Shown here in pieces: positions 56,339 to 64,000 of a stretch of 64,000 nucleotides of DNA. Each line of letters begins with the position of its first letter. Positions within the stretch are counted from its first letter, which is position 1. Source of the stretch: Cognatiluteimonas sedimenti (GTDB lineage Bacteria > Pseudomonadota > Gammaproteobacteria > Xanthomonadales > Xanthomonadaceae). Location of the stretch: NCBI RefSeq assembly GCF_022808325.1, contig NZ_JALGCL010000002.1, positions 246,947 through 310,946 of the forward strand, given 5' to 3'. Position numbers and translations under genes: made by a program. A model generated the notes under the pieces. That model saw only the letters and a list, made by a program, of their open reading frames with translations. It did no database searches and was not told the origin of the DNA.

Positions 56339-56414
56339 GTGGGAGCGGCTTCAGCCGCGAGCTTTTCCAGTTTGCCCGCCTGTGGCAAGAGCTCGCGGCT
56401 GAAGCCGCTCCCAC
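56339..56414. repeat. REP-type palindrome copy 2 (with an extra half-site)
   Basis: Perfect 25-base arms (56339-56363 and 56390-56414, beginning GTGGGAGCGGCTTCAGCCGC) around a 26-base loop; an extra GGCCGCTCCCAC half-site follows at 56418-56429. Lies in the spacer before uvrB. Confidence 0.92.
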
Positions 56415-56507: not shown

Positions 56508-58544
56508 ATGAACGACACGATCCATCCCGCAGGCTTCCAGCTGGTCGCGCCGTATTCCCCGGCGGGCGACCAGCCGCCGGCGATCGACAAGCTGGTCGCC
56601 GGGTTCGAGTCGGGCTTGGCGCGGCAGACGCTGCTCGGGGTCACCGGTTCGGGCAAGACCTACACCATCGCCAACGTCGTCCAGCAGGTGCAGAAGCCGA
56701 CCCTGGTGATGGCGCCCAACAAGACCCTGGCCGCGCAGCTGTACGGCGAGTTCCGCTCGTTCTTCCCGCACAACGCGGTCGAGTACTTCGTCAGCTATTA
56801 CGACTACTACCAGCCCGAGGCCTACATCCCGTCGTCGGACACCTTCATCGACAAGGACAGCTCGGTCAACGAGCACATCGAGCAGATGCGGCTTTCGGCG
56901 ACCAAGGCGCTGCTGGAGCGGCGCGACTCGATCATCGTCTGCACGGTGTCGGCGATCTACGGCCTCGGCGACCCGGGCGAATACCACAAGATGGTGCTGC
57001 ACATGGTCCGCGGCGAGCGCATCGACCAGCGCGAGCTGATCCGCCGCCTGACCGAGATGCAGTACGACCGCAACGAGATGGACCTGGCCCGCGGCACTTT
57101 CCGCGTGCGCGGCGAGGTGATCGACGTGCACCCGGCCGAATCGGATGTCGAGGCGCTGCGGATCGAGCTGTTCGACGGCGAGATCGAGAACCTCACCCTG
57201 TTCGATCCGCTCACCGGCGAGACCATCCGCAAGCTGCCGCGCTACACCATCTACCCGGGTTCGCACTACGTGACCTCGCGCCGCACCGTGCTGGACGCGG
57301 TCGAGACCATCAAGGTTGAGTTGCGCGAACGGCTGGAATGGCTGTACGCGCAGAACAAGCTGGTCGAGGCGCAGCGCCTGGCGCAGCGCACCCAGTTCGA
57401 CCTGGAGATGATGGCCGAAGTCGGCTACTGCAACGGCATCGAGAACTACTCGCGCCATCTCACCGGCTACATGCCAGGCGAGCCGCCGCCGTGCCTGTTC
57501 GACTACCTGCCGCCGGACGCGCTGCTGGTGGTCGACGAGTCGCACGTCACCGTCCCGCAGATCGGCGCGATGTACAAGGGCGACCGCTCGCGCAAGGAGA
57601 CGCTGGTGGAATTCGGCTTCCGGCTGCCGTCGGCGCTGGACAACCGGCCGCTGAAGTTCGAGGAGTGGGAAGGCCGCGCGCCGCGCGCCATTTTCGTCTC
57701 CGCCACGCCGGGCCCGTACGAACTGCGGATGTCGGAAGGCGAGGTCACCGAACTGGTGGTGCGCCCGACCGGGTTGATCGACCCGGAAGTGGAGATCCGC
57801 CCGGTCGCCACCCAGGTCGACGACGTGCTCGGCGAGATCAACCTGCGGGTGGCGATGGGCGACCGCGTGCTGATCACCACGCTGACCAAGCGCATGGCCG
57901 AGAACCTGACCGAATACCTGGCCGAACACGACGTGCGCGTGCGCTACCTGCACTCGGACGTGGACACGGTCGAGCGTGTCGAGATCATCCGCGACCTGCG
58001 GCTGGGCAAGTTCGACGTGCTGGTGGGCATCAACCTGCTGCGCGAGGGCCTGGACATGCCGGAGGTGTCGCTGGTCGCGATCCTGGACGCCGACAAGGAA
58101 GGTTTCCTGCGCTCGGCCGGATCGCTGATCCAGACCATCGGCCGCGCCGCCCGCAACCTGCGCGGCAAGGCGATCCTGTACGCCGACCGGGTCACCAATT
58201 CGATGCAGAAGGCGATCGAAGAAACCGACCGCCGCCGCGCCAGGCAGGTCGAGTACAACGCCGAGCACGGGATCACCCCGCAGAGCATCCAGCGGGCGGT
58301 GATGGACGTGATGGAAGGCGCGCGCACCGAGCCCGGCACGCTCAAGGGCAAGGGCCGCGGCAAGTCGCGGCGCGTGGCCGAGGCGCCCGAAGACTACGCG
58401 TTGCTGAGCCCGGCACAGCGCAATGCCCGGCTGCGCGAACTGGAGCAGCAGATGTACCAGCACGCCCGGGACCTGGAGTTCGAGCAGGCCGCACTGGTGC
58501 GCGACCGGATCCGCCAGCTCAAGGAGGCCGCGCTGGCGGGGTGA
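56508..58544 (+). CDS. uvrB: UvrABC excinuclease subunit B
   Basis: 678-residue damage-verifying helicase of nucleotide excision repair. Walker A GVTGSGKT near 42-49; the beta-hairpin [11 protein letters not shown] near 95-105; DESHVT (motif II) and the helicase motif [27 protein letters not shown] (cited in part). The C-terminal UVR domain ([20 protein letters not shown]) binds UvrC. Normal length. No upstream gene in the operon; a LexA box is not evident. Confidence 0.97.
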
Positions 58545-58614
58545 AGCCTCCCTTGACCGGCCACTAACGCCGGCAGTGTCACCGTTCCGGTTCCCCCACG
58601 AAACGAGGTGCGAC

Positions 58615-59157
58615 ATGGGACTTTTCGACTTCATGAAGGACGCCGGCGCGAAGATCTTCGGCAAGGACCACGACGGCGACGTCACCAAGCCCCTGAGCCA
58701 GCACCTGCGTGAGCACGGGATCGATCCGACCCCGATCGATTTCACCTTCGGCGGCGACGGCACCGTGACCATGCGCGGCACGGTCAAGGACCAGGACACC
58801 CGCGAGAAAGCGGTGCTGATCGTCGGCAATGTCGAGGGCGTGTCGCGGGTGGACGACCAGCTGCGCATCGCCCAGGCCGGCGCCGACTTCGGCAACGTGG
58901 TCGCCCGCGCCGACACCGTCAGCGCCAGCCCGGCGGGAAGCAGCGGTTCGGTGGCGCAGGCCTCGGCCGGCGGCAATGGCGGCTGGAGCTCGCGGACCTA
59001 CACCGTGAAGTCCGGAGACACCCTGTCCGGGATCGCGACGGAGGTCTACGGCAATGCCGGCAAGTACCAGCAGATCTTCGAGGCCAACCGGCCGATGCTG
59101 AAGGACCCTGACCACATCTACCCGGGCCAGGTCCTGCGGATCCCGCCGCAAGCCTGA
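58615..59157 (+). CDS. BON-LysM protein, Kbp/YgaU-like
   Basis: 180 residues. The BON domain occupies about residues 22-88 (LREHGIDPTPIDFTFGGDG, VSRVDDQLRI), a Ser/Gly/Ala linker 95-125, and a LysM domain the C-terminus (RTYTVKSGDTLSGIATEVYGN, YPGQVLRIP). Layout and N-terminal GLFDFMKDAGAKIF match E. coli Kbp, a cytoplasmic potassium-binding protein. No signal peptide. GAGGTG precedes the ATG at 58615. Confidence 0.9.
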   Translation: MGLFDFMKDAGAKIFGKDHDGDVTKPLSQHLREHGIDPTPIDFTFGGDGTVTMRGTVKDQDTREKAVLIVGNVEGVSRVDDQLRIAQAGADFGNVVARADTVSASPAGSSGSVAQASAGGNGGWSSRTYTVKSGDTLSGIATEVYGNAGKYQQIFEANRPMLKDPDHIYPGQVLRIPPQA

Positions 59158-59173
59158 GCTGGCGCCGGTTCTG

Positions 59174-59203
59174 TTGTCCCCGGGCCGGCCGCTGGGCTAC
59201 ACT
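59174..59203 (+). promoter_or_regulatory. Predicted tRNA-Val promoter
   Basis: TTGTCC (59174-59179) and TACACT (59198-59203), 18-base spacer, about 30 bases before the tRNA 5' end. Confidence 0.55.
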
Positions 59204-59239
59204 GCGCGCCCCCTCGCCGGCGCTTGCCTGCGGCGAAAC

Positions 59240-59314
59240 GGGCGGTTAGCTCAGCGGTAGAGCACTACCTTGACATGGTAGGGGTCACAGGTTCGAACCC
59301 TGTACCGCCCACCA
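59240..59314 (+). tRNA. tRNA-Val (anticodon GAC)
   Basis: 75 bases with encoded CCA. Acceptor GGGCGGT/ACCGCCC, D-arm AGCTCAGCGGTAGAGC, anticodon loop TTGACAT, T-arm CAGGTTCGAACCCTG. Confidence 0.98.
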
Positions 59315-59340
59315 CGCTTCCACCAGCGTGATGTCCTGAT

Positions 59341-59361
59341 CGGCCGGGCCTGTCCCGGCCG
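59341..59361 (+). terminator. tRNA-Val terminator
   Basis: 8-bp stem CGGCCGGG/CCCGGCCG (59341-59348 with 59354-59361), loop CCTGT, followed by TTCCGTTTT. Confidence 0.75.
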
Positions 59362-59397
59362 TTCCGTTTTCCGGGGTCGGCGATCGTGGCGGAGGCG

Positions 59398-59426
59398 TTG
59401 ACGCCGCCGCTGCCAACCCCTAGCTT
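59398..59426 (+). promoter_or_regulatory. Predicted promoter of the thrS operon leader
   Basis: TTGACG (59398-59403) and TAGCTT (59421-59426) with the optimal 17-base spacer. The start would be near 59433, so the leader RNA would be about 250 bases to the thrS ATG. It lies after the tRNA-Val terminator, arguing for separate transcription of thrS. Confidence 0.5.
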
Positions 59427-59480
59427 GTCTTGCCAAGCATCCCAAGGGTGGCCCGCGGAAACGCCGGCCGAGCGTGCGAC

Positions 59481-59507
59481 ATGGACACTACCACCGCCCA
59501 CCGCTGA
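59481..59507 (+). CDS. thrS leader peptide (Met-Asp-Thr-Thr-Thr-Ala-His-Arg)
   Basis: Eight-codon frame ATG GAC ACT ACC ACC GCC CAC CGC TGA, with three consecutive Thr codons at positions 3-5. It ends 27 bases before a T8 terminator and is upstream of thrS. Ribosome stalling at the Thr codons when charged tRNA-Thr is scarce would favour an antiterminator: CGAGG (59515-59519) can pair with CCTCG (59539-59543), overlapping the terminator stem. Only a weak ribosome site (CGAG, about eight bases upstream) is visible. Too short for a routine gene caller. Confidence 0.6.
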   Translation: MDTTTAHR

Positions 59508-59534
59508 CCTGCCCCGAGGCTTCCGCATCCGCCG

Positions 59535-59557
59535 GCGCCCTCGTGGCGCTTTTTTTT
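59535..59557 (+). terminator. Attenuator terminator before thrS
   Basis: Stem GCGCC/GGCGC (59535-59539 with 59545-59549), loop CTCGT, followed directly by eight T (59550-59557). It ends no annotated gene upstream, which is what an attenuator in a leader does. Confidence 0.75.
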
Positions 59558-59582
59558 GTTGCACAGCGACCCGTGAAATCCC

Positions 59583-59659
59583 TGTAGGAGCGGCTTCAGC
59601 CGCGACCAGAAGCGATAAGGGCACGACAGGCACCAGTCGCGGCTGAAGCCGCTCCTACA
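59583..59659. repeat. REP-type palindrome copy 3, inside the thrS 5' leader
   Basis: Perfect 24-base arms (59583-59606 and 59636-59659, starting TGTAGGAGCGGCTTCAGCCG), loop 29 bases. It sits between the attenuator and the thrS start, ending 23 bases before the ATG, so it must be in the mRNA leader. Confidence 0.92.
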
Positions 59660-59682
59660 AGAACCGACAGCAAGCAGATCCC

Positions 59683-61587
59683 ATGATCAACATCACGCTC
59701 CCCGACGGCAGCCGCCGCGAATTCGACCAGCCCGTCTCCGTCGCCGACATCGCCGCCTCGATCGGCCCCGGCCTGGCCAAGGCCGCGCTGGCCGGCAAGG
59801 TCGACGGAGACCTGGTCGACACCAGCTTCCGCATCGACCATGACGCCGCGCTGGAAATCGTCACCGACAAGCATCCCGACGCGCTCGACGTGCTGCGCCA
59901 TTCCACCGCGCACCTGCTGGCGCAGGCGGTGCAGCGCCTGCATCCGGGTGCGCAGGTCACCATCGGCCCGGTGATCGACAACGGCTTCTACTACGACTTC
60001 GCCTACGAGCGTCCGTTCACGCCCGAAGACCTGCCGGCGATCGAAGCGGAGATGCAGAAGATCGTGAAGGAGGCGCACCCGGTCTCGCGCAGCGTCAAGG
60101 CGCGCGACGAGGCCACGAAGTTCTTCCGCGACATGGGCGAGGAGTACAAGGCCCAGATCATCGAGGCGATCCCCGCCGACCAGGAACTGTCGCTGTATTC
60201 GCAGGGCGAGTTCACCGACCTCTGCCGCGGCCCCCACGTCCCGTCCACCGACAAGCTGCGCAGCTTCAAGCTGATGAAGGTCGCCGGCGCCTACTGGCGC
60301 GGCGACCACAACAACCAGATGCTCAGCCGCATCTACGGCACCGCCTGGTTGAACGACAAGGACCTCAAGGCCTACCTGCACATGCTGGAGGAGGCCGAGA
60401 AACGCGACCACCGCCGCATCGGCAGGCAGCAGGACCTGTTCCACATCCAGGAGGAGGCGCCGGGCCTGGTGTTCTGGCACCCGAAGGGCTGGAGCGTGTG
60501 GCAGGTGGTCGAGCAGTACATGCGCAAGGTCTACCAGCGCACCGGCTACGGCGAGGTGCGCTGCCCGCAGATCCTGGACGTTTCGCTGTGGAAGCAGTCC
60601 GGCCACTGGGACAACTACCAGGACAACATGTTCTTCACCGAGTCGGAGAAGCGCACCTATGCGCTGAAGCCGATGAACTGCCCGGGCCACGTGCAGGTGT
60701 TCAAGCAGGGCCTGCACAGCTATCGCGACCTGCCGATCCGTTATGGCGAGTTCGGCGCCTGCCACCGCAACGAGCCGTCGGGCGCGCTGCACGGCATCCT
60801 GCGCGTGCGCGGCTTCACCCAGGACGATGGCCACGTCTTCTGCACCGAGGACCAGATCGAGGCCGAGGTCACGGCATTCCACGCCCAGGCCATGCAGGTG
60901 TACGCGGACTTCGGCTTCAACGACGTGCAGGTCAAGCTGGCGCTGCGCCCGGAGCCGCGCCTGGGCGATGACGCGACCTGGGACAAGGCCGAGGATGCCC
61001 TGCGTGGCGCCCTGCGGGCGGCCGGGGTGGAATGGGAGGAGCTGCCGGGCGAGGGCGCCTTCTACGGGCCCAAGATCGAGTACCACCTGCGCGACGCCAT
61101 CGGCCGCACCTGGCAGCTGGGCACGATGCAGGTCGATTTCATGATGCCGGGGCGCCTGGGCGCCGAATACGTCGACGAGCACAGCCAGAAGCGGCACCCG
61201 GTGATGCTGCACCGGGCGATCGTGGGCTCGATGGAGCGCTTCATCGGGATCCTGATCGAGCACCATGCCGGCGCCTTCCCGGCCTGGCTGGCCCCAATCC
61301 AGGCGGTGGTGATGAACATCACCGACGCCCAGGCCGACTGGGTCGAAGAGGTCCGGAAAACCCTTGCAAATCAAGGATTCAGGGTCGGTTCCGATTTGCG
61401 GAACGAGAAGATCGGCTATAAGATCCGCGAGCACGCGATGCAGCGGGTGCCCTACCTGCTGGTGGTCGGGGACCGCGAGAAGGACAATGGCGAGGTCGCC
61501 GTCCGCTCGCGCGGCGGCGAAGATCTTGGGACAATGACCGTCGCCGATTTCGCCTCGCGTTTGCGTGGGGAACAAGCCGCACTTTAG
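59683..61587 (+). CDS. thrS: Threonyl-tRNA synthetase
   Basis: 634-residue class II synthetase that charges tRNA-Thr. Domains: TGS (residues 1-60, [15 protein letters not shown]), the editing domain with HxxxH ([12 protein letters not shown], about 72-90) and [10 protein letters not shown], the catalytic core with motif 2 [15 protein letters not shown] and zinc ligands in [11 protein letters not shown] (Cys), DGHVF, and the anticodon-binding domain at the end. Typical length. It heads thrS-infC-rpmI-rplT-pheS; E. coli uses ThrRS translational feedback, here a leader attenuator is proposed. Confidence 0.97.
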
Positions 61588-61641
61588 TTCCAGGCCCGCC
61601 CGGCGATCCCGGGCGGCACGATCCATTCCGGAGATTGCAAC

Positions 61642-62166
61642 ATCAGCACCCCCGAAAAGCAGAACCGAAAGAACAACGAGATCCGCGTGCCGCGCGTACG
61701 CGTGATCGGCAGCGATGGCGAGATGATCGGCGTGCTGTCGCGCGACGAAGCCTTGAGCATGGCCGAAGAGGAAGGCCTGGACCTGGTCGAGATCCAGCCC
61801 AACGCCGATCCGCCGGTCTGCAAGATCATGGACTTCGGCAAGTTCAAGTTCGAACTGCAGAAGAAGGCCAACGAGGCCAAGAAGAAGACCAGGCAGGTCG
61901 AGATCAAGGAAGTCAAGTTCCGTCCGGTCACGGACGAGGGCGACTACCAGATCAAGCTGCGCAAGATGCGCGAGTTCCTCGAAGAGGGCGACAAGATCAA
62001 GGTCAACATCCGCTTCCGTGGCCGCGAGATGAGCCACCAGGAGCTGGGCCGCGAGATGGCCGCCCGGATCGAGACCGACCTGGGGGAGAACATCGTCATC
62101 GAATCGCGCCCGCGCCTGGAAGGCCGGCAGATGGTGATGATGATCGCGCCGAAGAAGAAGACCTGA
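61642..62166 (+). CDS. infC: Translation initiation factor IF-3 (AUC start)
   Basis: 174-residue IF-3 when started at the ATC 61642, which places GGAGAT seven bases upstream and restores the usual N-terminal [22 protein letters not shown] (61634) is out of frame, and the GTG at 61687 would cut 15 residues. Non-AUG starts are known in infC and allow autoregulation by IF-3 discrimination. IF-3 binds the 30S subunit and controls start-codon choice. The C-terminal [10 protein letters not shown] and [19 protein letters not shown] are conserved. Confidence 0.93.
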
Positions 62167-62239
62167 CGCCGGCAGGCCGGCCACGCCGGCCTCTGCGCAC
62201 GGGCCTCGTCCCCAAAGGCCTGATTCCCAAAGGAATTAA

Positions 62240-62268
62240 TTGCAAGCCGCCGTTCCAGGCCGCATAAT
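62240..62268 (+). promoter_or_regulatory. Internal promoter for rpmI-rplT
   Basis: TTGCAA (62240-62245) and CATAAT (62263-62268) with a 17-base spacer in an A+T-rich pocket. The start near 62275 gives a leader of about 160 bases before rpmI. Confidence 0.6.
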
Positions 62269-62318
62269 GTGCGGCCCGGTGCGCCGGGTTGGTGTTTGTG
62301 TCACCCAGGACCCGTCGC

Positions 62319-62398
62319 CTGATCCCTTCCGGATCAGCGACTTACCGCCGGCAAGGGCAGGACGGAAAGCGTGCCGCTCCCATGAGAATGGGGGGCAC
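62319..62398 (+). promoter_or_regulatory. Structured rpmI leader, candidate L20-type autoregulatory element
   Basis: Two hairpins: CTGATCC/GGATCAG (62319-62325 with 62331-62337), and a longer one at 62371-62398 where GTGCC pairs with GGCAC and CCCAT with ATGGG around a GAGA (GNRA-type) tetraloop. In bacteria, rpmI-rplT is repressed by L20 binding to its leader; the fold here may serve that role. The palindrome at 62174-62192 upstream may end infC transcripts. Confidence 0.45.
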
Positions 62399-62435
62399 CG
62401 CCCAGGCCAGTAGACGATTTCGCAAGGACACTCCA

Positions 62436-62633
62436 ATGCCCAAGATCAAGACCAATCGGGCGGCGGCCAAGCGCTTCCGGAAGACCGCTTCCGGCAAGTA
62501 CAAGTGCGGCCACGCCAACAAGAGCCACATCCTCACCAAGAAGGCGACCAAGCGGAAGCGCAACCTGCGGCAGACGAACCATGTTCGTGCCGAGGACGCG
62601 GGCCGCCTGGACCGCATGCTTCCGTACTTGTGA
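62436..62633 (+). CDS. rpmI: 50S ribosomal protein L35
   Basis: 65 residues, [20 protein letters not shown] start, then [23 protein letters not shown]. Very basic, normal length for L35. AAGGACA lies ahead of the ATG. Cotranscribed with rplT, whose ATG is 11 bases downstream. Confidence 0.97.
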
Positions 62634-62644
62634 GGAGATAGGAC

Positions 62645-63004
62645 ATGGCACGAGTCAAACGTGGTGTACAGGCGCGTCGGCGCCACAAGAAGGTTCTCAA
62701 GCAGGCCAAGGGCTACTACCACGCCCGCCGCAAGGTCTTCCGCGTCGCCAAGCAGGCGGTCACGAAGGCCCTGCAGTACGCCTACATCGGCCGCAAGCAG
62801 AAGAAGCGCCAGTTCCGCACCCTGTGGATCGCGCGCATCAATGCTGCCGCCCGCATCAACGGCATCAGCTACAGCCGCTTCATGAACGGCCTGATGAAGG
62901 CCGGCATCACCCTGGACCGCAAGGTGCTGGCGGACATCGCCGTGCACGACGCGTCCGGTTTTGCCGCGCTGGCAGAGAAGGCGAAGGGCGCGCTCGCAGC
63001 GTAA
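62645..63004 (+). CDS. rplT: 50S ribosomal protein L20
   Basis: 119 residues, [20 protein letters not shown] start, then [18 protein letters not shown] and the C-terminal globular part ([16 protein letters not shown]). Binds 23S rRNA early in assembly and represses its own operon in E. coli. GAGGAGATAGG precedes the ATG. Confidence 0.97.
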
Positions 63005-63068
63005 GTTGTCCGCATGGCCGCGCGGTGCCGCACGCGGCGCCCGCGATCGTTGCACAACGCGGTACACG

Positions 63069-63103
63069 CATGGGGAAGGGCGCAAGTCCTTCCCCATGTT
63101 CGT
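63069..63103 (+). terminator. Terminator after rplT
   Basis: Perfect 11-bp stem CATGGGGAAGG/CCTTCCCCATG (63069-63079 with 63088-63098), followed by TTCGTTT. Partial termination would separate pheS expression from the ribosomal genes. Confidence 0.75.
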
Positions 63104-63160
63104 TTCGGGCTTGTCATCAAGCGAAAAAAGCCGCGCCTTCGCGGGATTGACGGCAGGTGA

Positions 63161-64000
<840 letters not shown>

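Follow-up and report, generated by a model that had tools for sequence, protein, structure and literature searches.

The threonyl-tRNA synthetase (ThrRS) gene thrS of Escherichia coli is the textbook example of a synthetase that represses its own translation. As described in PMC3858243, ThrRS binds a hairpin before thrS and blocks translation; the control responds to ThrRS/tRNA-Thr supply, and the ribosome-binding site is split by a hairpin. Other synthetase genes are controlled by attenuators, and those described in PMC1262725 (pheST in gammaproteobacteria, trpS and leuS in Streptomyces) have a short frame of cognate codons, then an antiterminator and a terminator, before the synthetase gene. 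In the E. coli trp and his attenuators, as set out in PMC1183508, the position of the ribosome on regulatory codons selects antiterminator versus terminator, the antiterminator strand becomes unavailable once the ribosome reaches the stop codon, and a protector/pause hairpin (the 1:2 pairing) is present. PMC7298713 adds the leaderless trpL of Sinorhizobium meliloti. Because synthetase-gene attenuators are already known, the principle is not new.

Here we describe a conserved leader 5' of thrS in Cognatiluteimonas sedimenti that is likely, with a probability of roughly 0.8, a ribosome-mediated transcription attenuator of this gene, a reading drawn from sequence comparison and RNA folding. The window, i.e., the whole stretch of DNA analyzed, comprised 64,000 nt of the forward strand (NZ_JALGCL010000002.1, positions 246,947 to 310,946), and all coordinates given are window positions on the + strand. 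The upstream neighbor is a tRNA-Val (GAC) gene (59240 to 59314; ARAGORN, Rfam tRNA), followed in 5' to 3' order by a promoter-like pair, an AAGGGTG run, a hairpin, the frame MDTTTAHR, a CGAGG strand, a GC hairpin with eight T, a palindromic repeat, and thrS (threonine--tRNA ligase, 59683 to 61587; NCBIfam TIGR00418, 712 bits), the gene presumably regulated. On the same strand 3' of thrS lie infC, rpmI, rplT, and pheS, and all five genes were confirmed with NCBIfam. A preliminary description of this DNA had proposed amino acid attenuation of thrS; each element it listed was found at its position, and the observation proved real and far beyond chance by motif conservation, a strict frame scan, co-variation, and promoter scoring.

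Compared with the pheST, trpS, and leuS attenuators (PMC1262725), the arrangement of frame, antiterminator, terminator, and synthetase gene is alike; the differences are threonine and thrS as amino acid and gene, a frame of eight codons, a hairpin between the Shine-Dalgarno (SD)-like run and the AUG, and the absence of supported 1:2 pairing in the window's family. With the E. coli thrS operator (PMC3858243), the leader has in common the gene and, probably, a hairpin-split ribosome-binding site, and it would likewise respond to ThrRS/tRNA-Thr supply.

Between the terminator and thrS lies a palindromic pair of GTAGGAGCGGCTTCAGCCGCGA (59584 to 59605 and 59637 to 59658), a REP-like repeat found at 82 places in the genome (≤1 mismatch), with a further pair at window positions 56339 to 56414. 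Rfam microRNA matches at 59571 to 59673 correspond to this palindrome and were rejected as RNA genes; across window positions 57000 to 64000, Rfam returned the tRNA plus sub-threshold microRNA and sRNA matches only (E up to 5). In 10 loci searched at E up to 1, the Thr leader had no Rfam match (T-box, threonine operon leader, and others). The rplT-pheS gap (63005 to 63178) showed by eye no Phe-rich, pheM-like frame, unlike E. coli; its single feature was a hairpin near 63070 to 63099.

The leader frame, MDTTTAHR plus stop (ATG GAC ACT ACC ACC GCC CAC CGC TGA), occupies 59481 to 59507. As the preliminary description had it, the frame spans eight codons with three successive Thr codons, ACT ACC ACC, at 59487 to 59495; the stop codon is at 59505 to 59507. 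Using the N-terminal part of ThrRS as the query, the gene was located in 59 of 60 genomes of the family (the match in G024 was weak and in another region), and the DNA upstream of 50 family thrS loci was read as an unconditioned sample. The motif G[T/A]G[C/T]GACATG opened a short frame 5' of thrS in 48 of these loci, and Thr-Thr occurred within the leader frame in 42 of the 50; a single Thr was present in L010, L012, L023, L024, L040, and L042. Two loci without the motif, L021 and L031, carry other leaders, MTRTGYP and MTRNGPHS. These two members of the window's family bear the MTRT/MTRN leader type of families f2 and f3, which suggests either replacement or the retention of an older leader. 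Related thrS leaders thus conserve a short Thr frame and a following terminator; the preliminary description had named the lack of a Thr-rich frame or terminator in such leaders as evidence against attenuation, and this is not what was seen.

A covariance model (R1) built from 45 of the 48 motif leaders matched 168 of 299 genomes of the order at E ≤ 0.01, and the matches listed at E ≤ 1e-5 came from families f1 (that of the window) and f12 and from one f3 genome (G110). Class-wide, 17 of 369 genomes matched at E ≤ 0.01; five reached E ≤ 1e-10, all of them f1 or f12, and the next best match had an E value of 7e-5. A pattern scan of named genomes, with 80 of at least 120 stretches listed and hence no census, placed the leader among the matches listed in Xanthomonas, Stenotrophomonas, Lysobacter, Luteimonas, Pseudoxanthomonas, Arenimonas, and Thermomonas, as well as in Rhodanobacter, Dyella, Luteibacter, Frateuria, and Fulvimonas, a few metagenome bins labeled Proteobacteria, and one labeled Rhizobium. 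Of these 80 listed matches, 78 lay within 600 nt 5' of thrS; for the remaining 2, the stretch ends soon after the match. Judging by the genera, f1 would correspond to Xanthomonadaceae and f12 to Rhodanobacteraceae.

Altogether 127 distinct leaders were collected (75 f1, 51 f12, and 1 f3), only the first 50 loci being unconditioned because later loci were picked by R1 matches. The usual length was eight codons (58 of 75 f1 and 46 of 51 f12 leaders), one Thr codon alone was seen in seven f1 leaders and one f12 leader, and the residues after the Thr codons varied freely. Codon 3 was ACT in 75 of 75 f1 and 46 of 51 f12 distinct leaders. ACT makes up 1 of the 87 Thr codons in the window's uvrB, thrS, infC, rplT, and part of pheS. 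The first Thr codon of the window's leader (59487 to 59489) is this rare codon, for which slow decoding or RNA-level reasons are both possible.

In a strict scan (an ATG frame of 4 to 13 codons with at least two Thr, ending 12 to 70 nt before a terminator), the qualifying leaders numbered 63 of 75 (f1) and 48 of 51 (f12), counting distinct leaders from sets that had both been chosen by the motif; 20 of 29 loci in other families of the order also qualified, versus 1 of 69 class loci from elsewhere. Arg, the amino acid ranked next, gave 12 of 75, 15 of 51, and 4 of 29. The short frame is thus enriched in codons for the amino acid of the gene that it would regulate.

Upstream of the frame, the promoter with a 17-base spacer reported earlier was present as a predicted -35-like box, TTGACG (59398 to 59403), and a predicted -10-like box, TAGCTT (59421 to 59426), with a predicted transcription start near 59433; TTGACG-17-TAGCTT scored 8.6 versus a shuffled mean of 2.3 (sd 2.5). 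TTGACA or TTGACT boxes recur in many relatives, part of these matches falling within tRNA-Val, and many f12 leaders have TAGCGT, TAGCTT, or TAGTTT 60 to 70 nt 5' of the leader ATG. In the window and many relatives, the interval between tRNA and leader carries a promoter-like pair.

Two elements absent from the preliminary description precede the frame. The first, an AAGGGTG run (59444 to 59450), is replaced by AGGTG in most relatives; across 45 leaders, G5 and G6 of this SD-like run were invariant and T7 and G8 were conserved in at least 90%. Its conservation suggests that it is likely the ribosome-binding site of the leader, split from the AUG by the second element, a conserved hairpin (GGCC.GCG-gaaa-CGC.GGCC, 59450 to 59469). 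In this hairpin, all 7 pairs showed two-sided changes and 93.0% of cells were paired, a result equaled by 0 of 500 shuffles; the loops include GAAA, GCAA, CCAA, and others. We dropped this hairpin as a candidate anticodon mimic, its loops being unlike the Thr anticodon. In L003 and L023, which lack the hairpin, GAGGTG directly adjoins CGACATG. The nucleotides around the leader AUG are strongly conserved.

Downstream of the frame lies a predicted intrinsic terminator, GGCGCC-ctcgt-GGCGCT plus a T tract (59534 to 59557). Its hairpin spans 59534 to 59550 and its T residues 59550 to 59557, matching the stem and eight T described before. By sequence, a terminator was placed between leader frame and gene in 119 of the 127 distinct leaders (in L018 by hand), and none was found in eight (L029, L035, L039, L042, L045, L141, L147, and L155). 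All eight keep the Thr frame; in L045 and L155 the T tract looks broken.

The preliminary description had also pointed out that CGAGG (59515 to 59519) can pair with CCTCG (59539 to 59543) in competition with the terminator, and in relatives these segments co-vary. The predicted antiterminator is longer than was noted, with a 5' strand (59510 to 59519) and a 3' strand formed by the terminator loop and neighboring arms (59539 to 59548), such that 59510 to 59513 and 59515 to 59519 would pair with 59539 to 59543 and 59545 to 59548. Co-variation was assessed by a swap test that compared the region 27 to 48 nt after the A of the AUG with its own and with other leaders' terminator loop and arms; z values are given for pairing score and then duplex energy. 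Own pairs beat swapped pairs (n = 106, z 9.0 and 9.6, 0 of 20000 permutations), also when each distinct terminator was counted once (n = 54, z 5.8 and 7.4, 0 of 20000), and a cruder version with a shorter segment gave z 6.5. The signal was strong in f1 (n = 61, z 6.7 and 7.7; n = 33, z 4.4 and 6.1; 0 of 20000), weak in f12 (n = 44, z 3.9 and 3.0, 4 and 52 of 20000; n = 25, z 2.0 and 2.2, 560 and 352 of 20000), and recurred in twenty other-family leaders plus L021 and L031 (n = 22, z 4.8, 1 and 0 of 20000). Examples of such pairing are CGAGG/CCTCG (L002), CAAGG/CCTTG (L049), CCTCGGT/GCCGAGG (L027), ATTGGC/GCCAAT (L030), and CGCCACGC/GCGTGGCG (L118). Because spacer lengths differ between leaders, a MAFFT alignment of entire leaders yielded no usable consensus with RNAalifold. 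Individual folds also showed AGCG (before the AUG) paired with CGCU (leader end), a pairing that was unsupported by swaps and was set aside.

These results bear on one alternative, that the hairpin only terminates the tRNA-Val unit and the Thr frame is a chance occurrence. The tRNA-Val gene is directly upstream, and in several relatives the best promoter match lies inside it; however, the Thr enrichment, the co-varying antiterminator, and the promoter-like pair between tRNA and leader would all go unexplained, and we consider this account extremely improbable.

To place the ribosome on the leader, we used a footprint whose 3' edge lies 12 nt past the first A-site base, in agreement with the +16 toeprint given in PMC3858243. 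Folding predicted opposite terminator probabilities at two ribosome positions: for the RNA downstream of the ribosome, the window's terminator had a probability of 0.01 with codon 4 in the A site versus 0.99 at the stop codon. Across 119 leaders, the median was 0.31 for the stalled and 0.99 for the stop position, with stalling lowering the probability by >0.2 in 72 leaders and the reverse in 2, and shuffling the spacers raised the stalled mean from 0.42 to 0.75. This calculation assumes that the 5' hairpin forms first and stays. At equilibrium over the whole leader, the window showed no switch (0.04 stalled versus 0.00 at the stop) as the 5' hairpin and the terminator arms refold together, and the 119 leaders moved in the expected direction by >0.2 in 37 and in reverse in 5. 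Of the alternative structures put forward in the preliminary description, the switch was thus recovered in the RNA downstream of the ribosome and was missing from the window's whole-leader fold. An antiterminator that excludes the terminator is nevertheless indicated by co-variation together with folding of the downstream RNA. With the ribosome at the stop codon, the footprint would overlap the antiterminator strand by 3 nt or more in only 78 of 115 leaders, and with codon 4 in the A site it would touch that strand in 9 of 115; in leaders with an early stop (MSTTTA, L048), the antiterminator strand is out of reach of the stop-codon ribosome.

A standard attenuator of the trp/his type would, by contrast, form a protector (1:2) hairpin whenever the ribosome is absent or past, so that no translation leads to termination. 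Pooled duplexes of frame and antiterminator strand did beat swaps (z 1.3 and 3.3, with 3 of 5000 for z 3.3), f12 alone gave an ambiguous signal that may reflect a 1:2 pairing there (n = 48, z 1.6 and 2.6, with 27 of 5000 for z 2.6), and some single leaders can form a short hairpin (e.g., CCTC..GAGG in L033). Against this, protector pairing gave no signal in f1, the window's family (n = 68, z -1.1 and 0.4), and the window folded from the AUG without a ribosome had a terminator probability of 0.01. We regard this form of attenuation as unlikely here.

The attenuation logic that had been suggested for threonyl-tRNA synthetase is supported by frame, terminator, and antiterminator co-variation, and it is not quite of the trp/his type, as no 1:2 pairing is supported in the window's family. 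Under the attenuator that we favor, the CGAGG strand would stay free while a ribosome sits on the Thr codons for want of threonyl-tRNA; this strand would pair with the terminator loop, and RNA polymerase would read on into thrS. With threonyl-tRNA plentiful, the ribosome would run to the stop codon, where its footprint would cover 59510 to 59517, most of the antiterminator strand, and the terminator would form. Translation of the frame, termination in cells, and charged tRNA-Thr as the signal are parts that we infer. Since no protector pairing is supported in f1, the ribosome at the stop codon is likely the off switch, a detail we favor with less certainty than attenuation as such. If there is no protector hairpin, thrS should stay on when the leader is not translated, the reverse of trp/his. 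Measured against the E. coli trp and his attenuators (PMC1183508), the choice between structures by ribosome position and the masking of the antiterminator strand at the stop codon would be shared; their protector/pause hairpin has no supported counterpart in f1, and no translation should, unlike there, mean readthrough.

Beyond f1 and f12, we chose 30 genomes of families f2 to f11, which yielded 29 thrS loci after exclusion of G157 (a synthetase-like region). In 20 of the 29, a terminator was preceded by a short frame containing two or more Thr, examples being MRTTTMAIH, MCQQATTTTTP, MTRTGTPD, and MKTTTKN; no such leader was found in the other 9 (L166, L169, L172, L173, L175, L179, L183, L185, and L186). 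Eight MTRT/MTRN/MTRV leaders, among them L021 and L031, share the arrangement GTAG-hairpin-ACGATCACC-ATG. By eye, the leader ATG lies 6 to 7 nt after a TANNNT box in nine of these 20 loci (L167, L170, L171, L174, L177, L178, L180, L181, and L182), and for this reason a leaderless message starting at the AUG is predicted there. In this respect these nine resemble the leaderless trpL of S. meliloti (PMC7298713), from which they differ in amino acid (threonine) and gene (thrS). The leader of the window itself is not of the leaderless kind.

The same source describes attenuator RNAs and leader peptides with trans roles (rnTrpL/peTrpL of Sinorhizobium, PMC7298713), and the leader RNA or peptide studied here might likewise act elsewhere, the terminator mainly serving to make that RNA. 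The strong nucleotide conservation around the AUG would suit such a role; the free variation of the peptide after its Thr codons and the presence of unrelated leaders at the same place in other families fit cis regulation. As a replacement for attenuation of thrS, a trans function seems very unlikely; it could exist alongside it.

Of 114 genomes of the class that were searched, 113 had thrS; from outside the order, 69 upstream regions (29 + 40) were read, with a bias to closer ThrRS proteins because most came from the top of the listing. One of the 69 (L375, MTPRTQEITLPAF) has a Thr leader ahead of a terminator; a looser scan (ATG, GTG, or TTG starts and up to 35 codons) gave 10 of 69, versus 1 of 69 with ATG and 4 to 13 codons. 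Many class loci instead have a hairpin with a CGU or GGU loop and then CACTG before thrS. It was observed about 15 to 45 nt before the gene in L328, L337, L342, L308, and other class loci. We take this hairpin to resemble the E. coli ThrRS operator (anticodon mimicry), and it is likely a widespread relative of that operator in many gammaproteobacteria outside the order. Model R2 of this hairpin, built on 27 rows selected for pairing, matched 32 of 69 class loci at E ≤ 1e-3: the 27 rows of the model, two identical copies, and three further loci. Among 100 f1, f12, and f3 loci there were three matches (E 0.12 to 0.61), and among 29 other loci of the order there were five (E 0.15 to 0.61); one of the weak matches, L041 (E 0.61), sits upstream of thrS. 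An anticodon-like hairpin before thrS was thus not convincingly found by R2 in 129 loci of the order, and the locus does not group with translational operators of the E. coli type. The contrast with E. coli thrS control drawn in the preliminary description holds more widely than stated, as the hairpin is common elsewhere in the class and unconvincing in the order.

It might still be asked whether ThrRS itself binds the leader, for instance at the hairpin lying between the SD-like run and the AUG, and acts as a repressor in the manner of E. coli. The succession of SD, hairpin, and AUG is reminiscent of E. coli thrS with its split ribosome-binding site (PMC3858243), where ThrRS binding to a hairpin before thrS blocks translation, a type not convincing in this order. 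Here, however, the hairpin sits before the leader frame and not before thrS, its GAAA, GCAA, CCAA, and other loops do not look like the Thr anticodon, the anticodon-hairpin model lacks a convincing match in the order, and the Thr codons and antiterminator co-variation would be left unexplained, which together make repression by ThrRS very improbable.

A broader reading joins these lines. We put even odds on the joint proposal that the order swapped the synthetase feedback operator for a two-state, default-on thrS attenuator with the terminating ribosome as off switch, and that this attenuator was built repeatedly from unrelated leaders, each with a strand invading the terminator loop: hairpin-split leaders, leaders with another type of hairpin (MTRT), and leaderless forms with a message that would start at the AUG. 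In the literature we found no report of thrS attenuation by a Thr leader; Lopatovskaya et al. 2010, reportedly a survey of attenuation in synthetase operons, may predict it, and Vitreschak et al. 2004 may likewise hold an earlier prediction. Relative to the literature found and to Rfam, the thrS case, the two-state form, the unrelated leaders, and the exchange with the operator by lineage appear to be new.

If this is true, two unrelated RNA devices, divided by lineage, serve to control the same essential gene in gammaproteobacteria. The order would then offer a natural series (hairpin-split, hairpin-less, and leaderless leaders, with early and late stops) for what a minimal attenuator needs, and both the default-on prediction and the role of the rare, invariant ACT as codon 3 lend themselves to direct tests. 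The leader may also govern infC, rpmI, rplT, and pheS, which lie on the same strand 3' of thrS.
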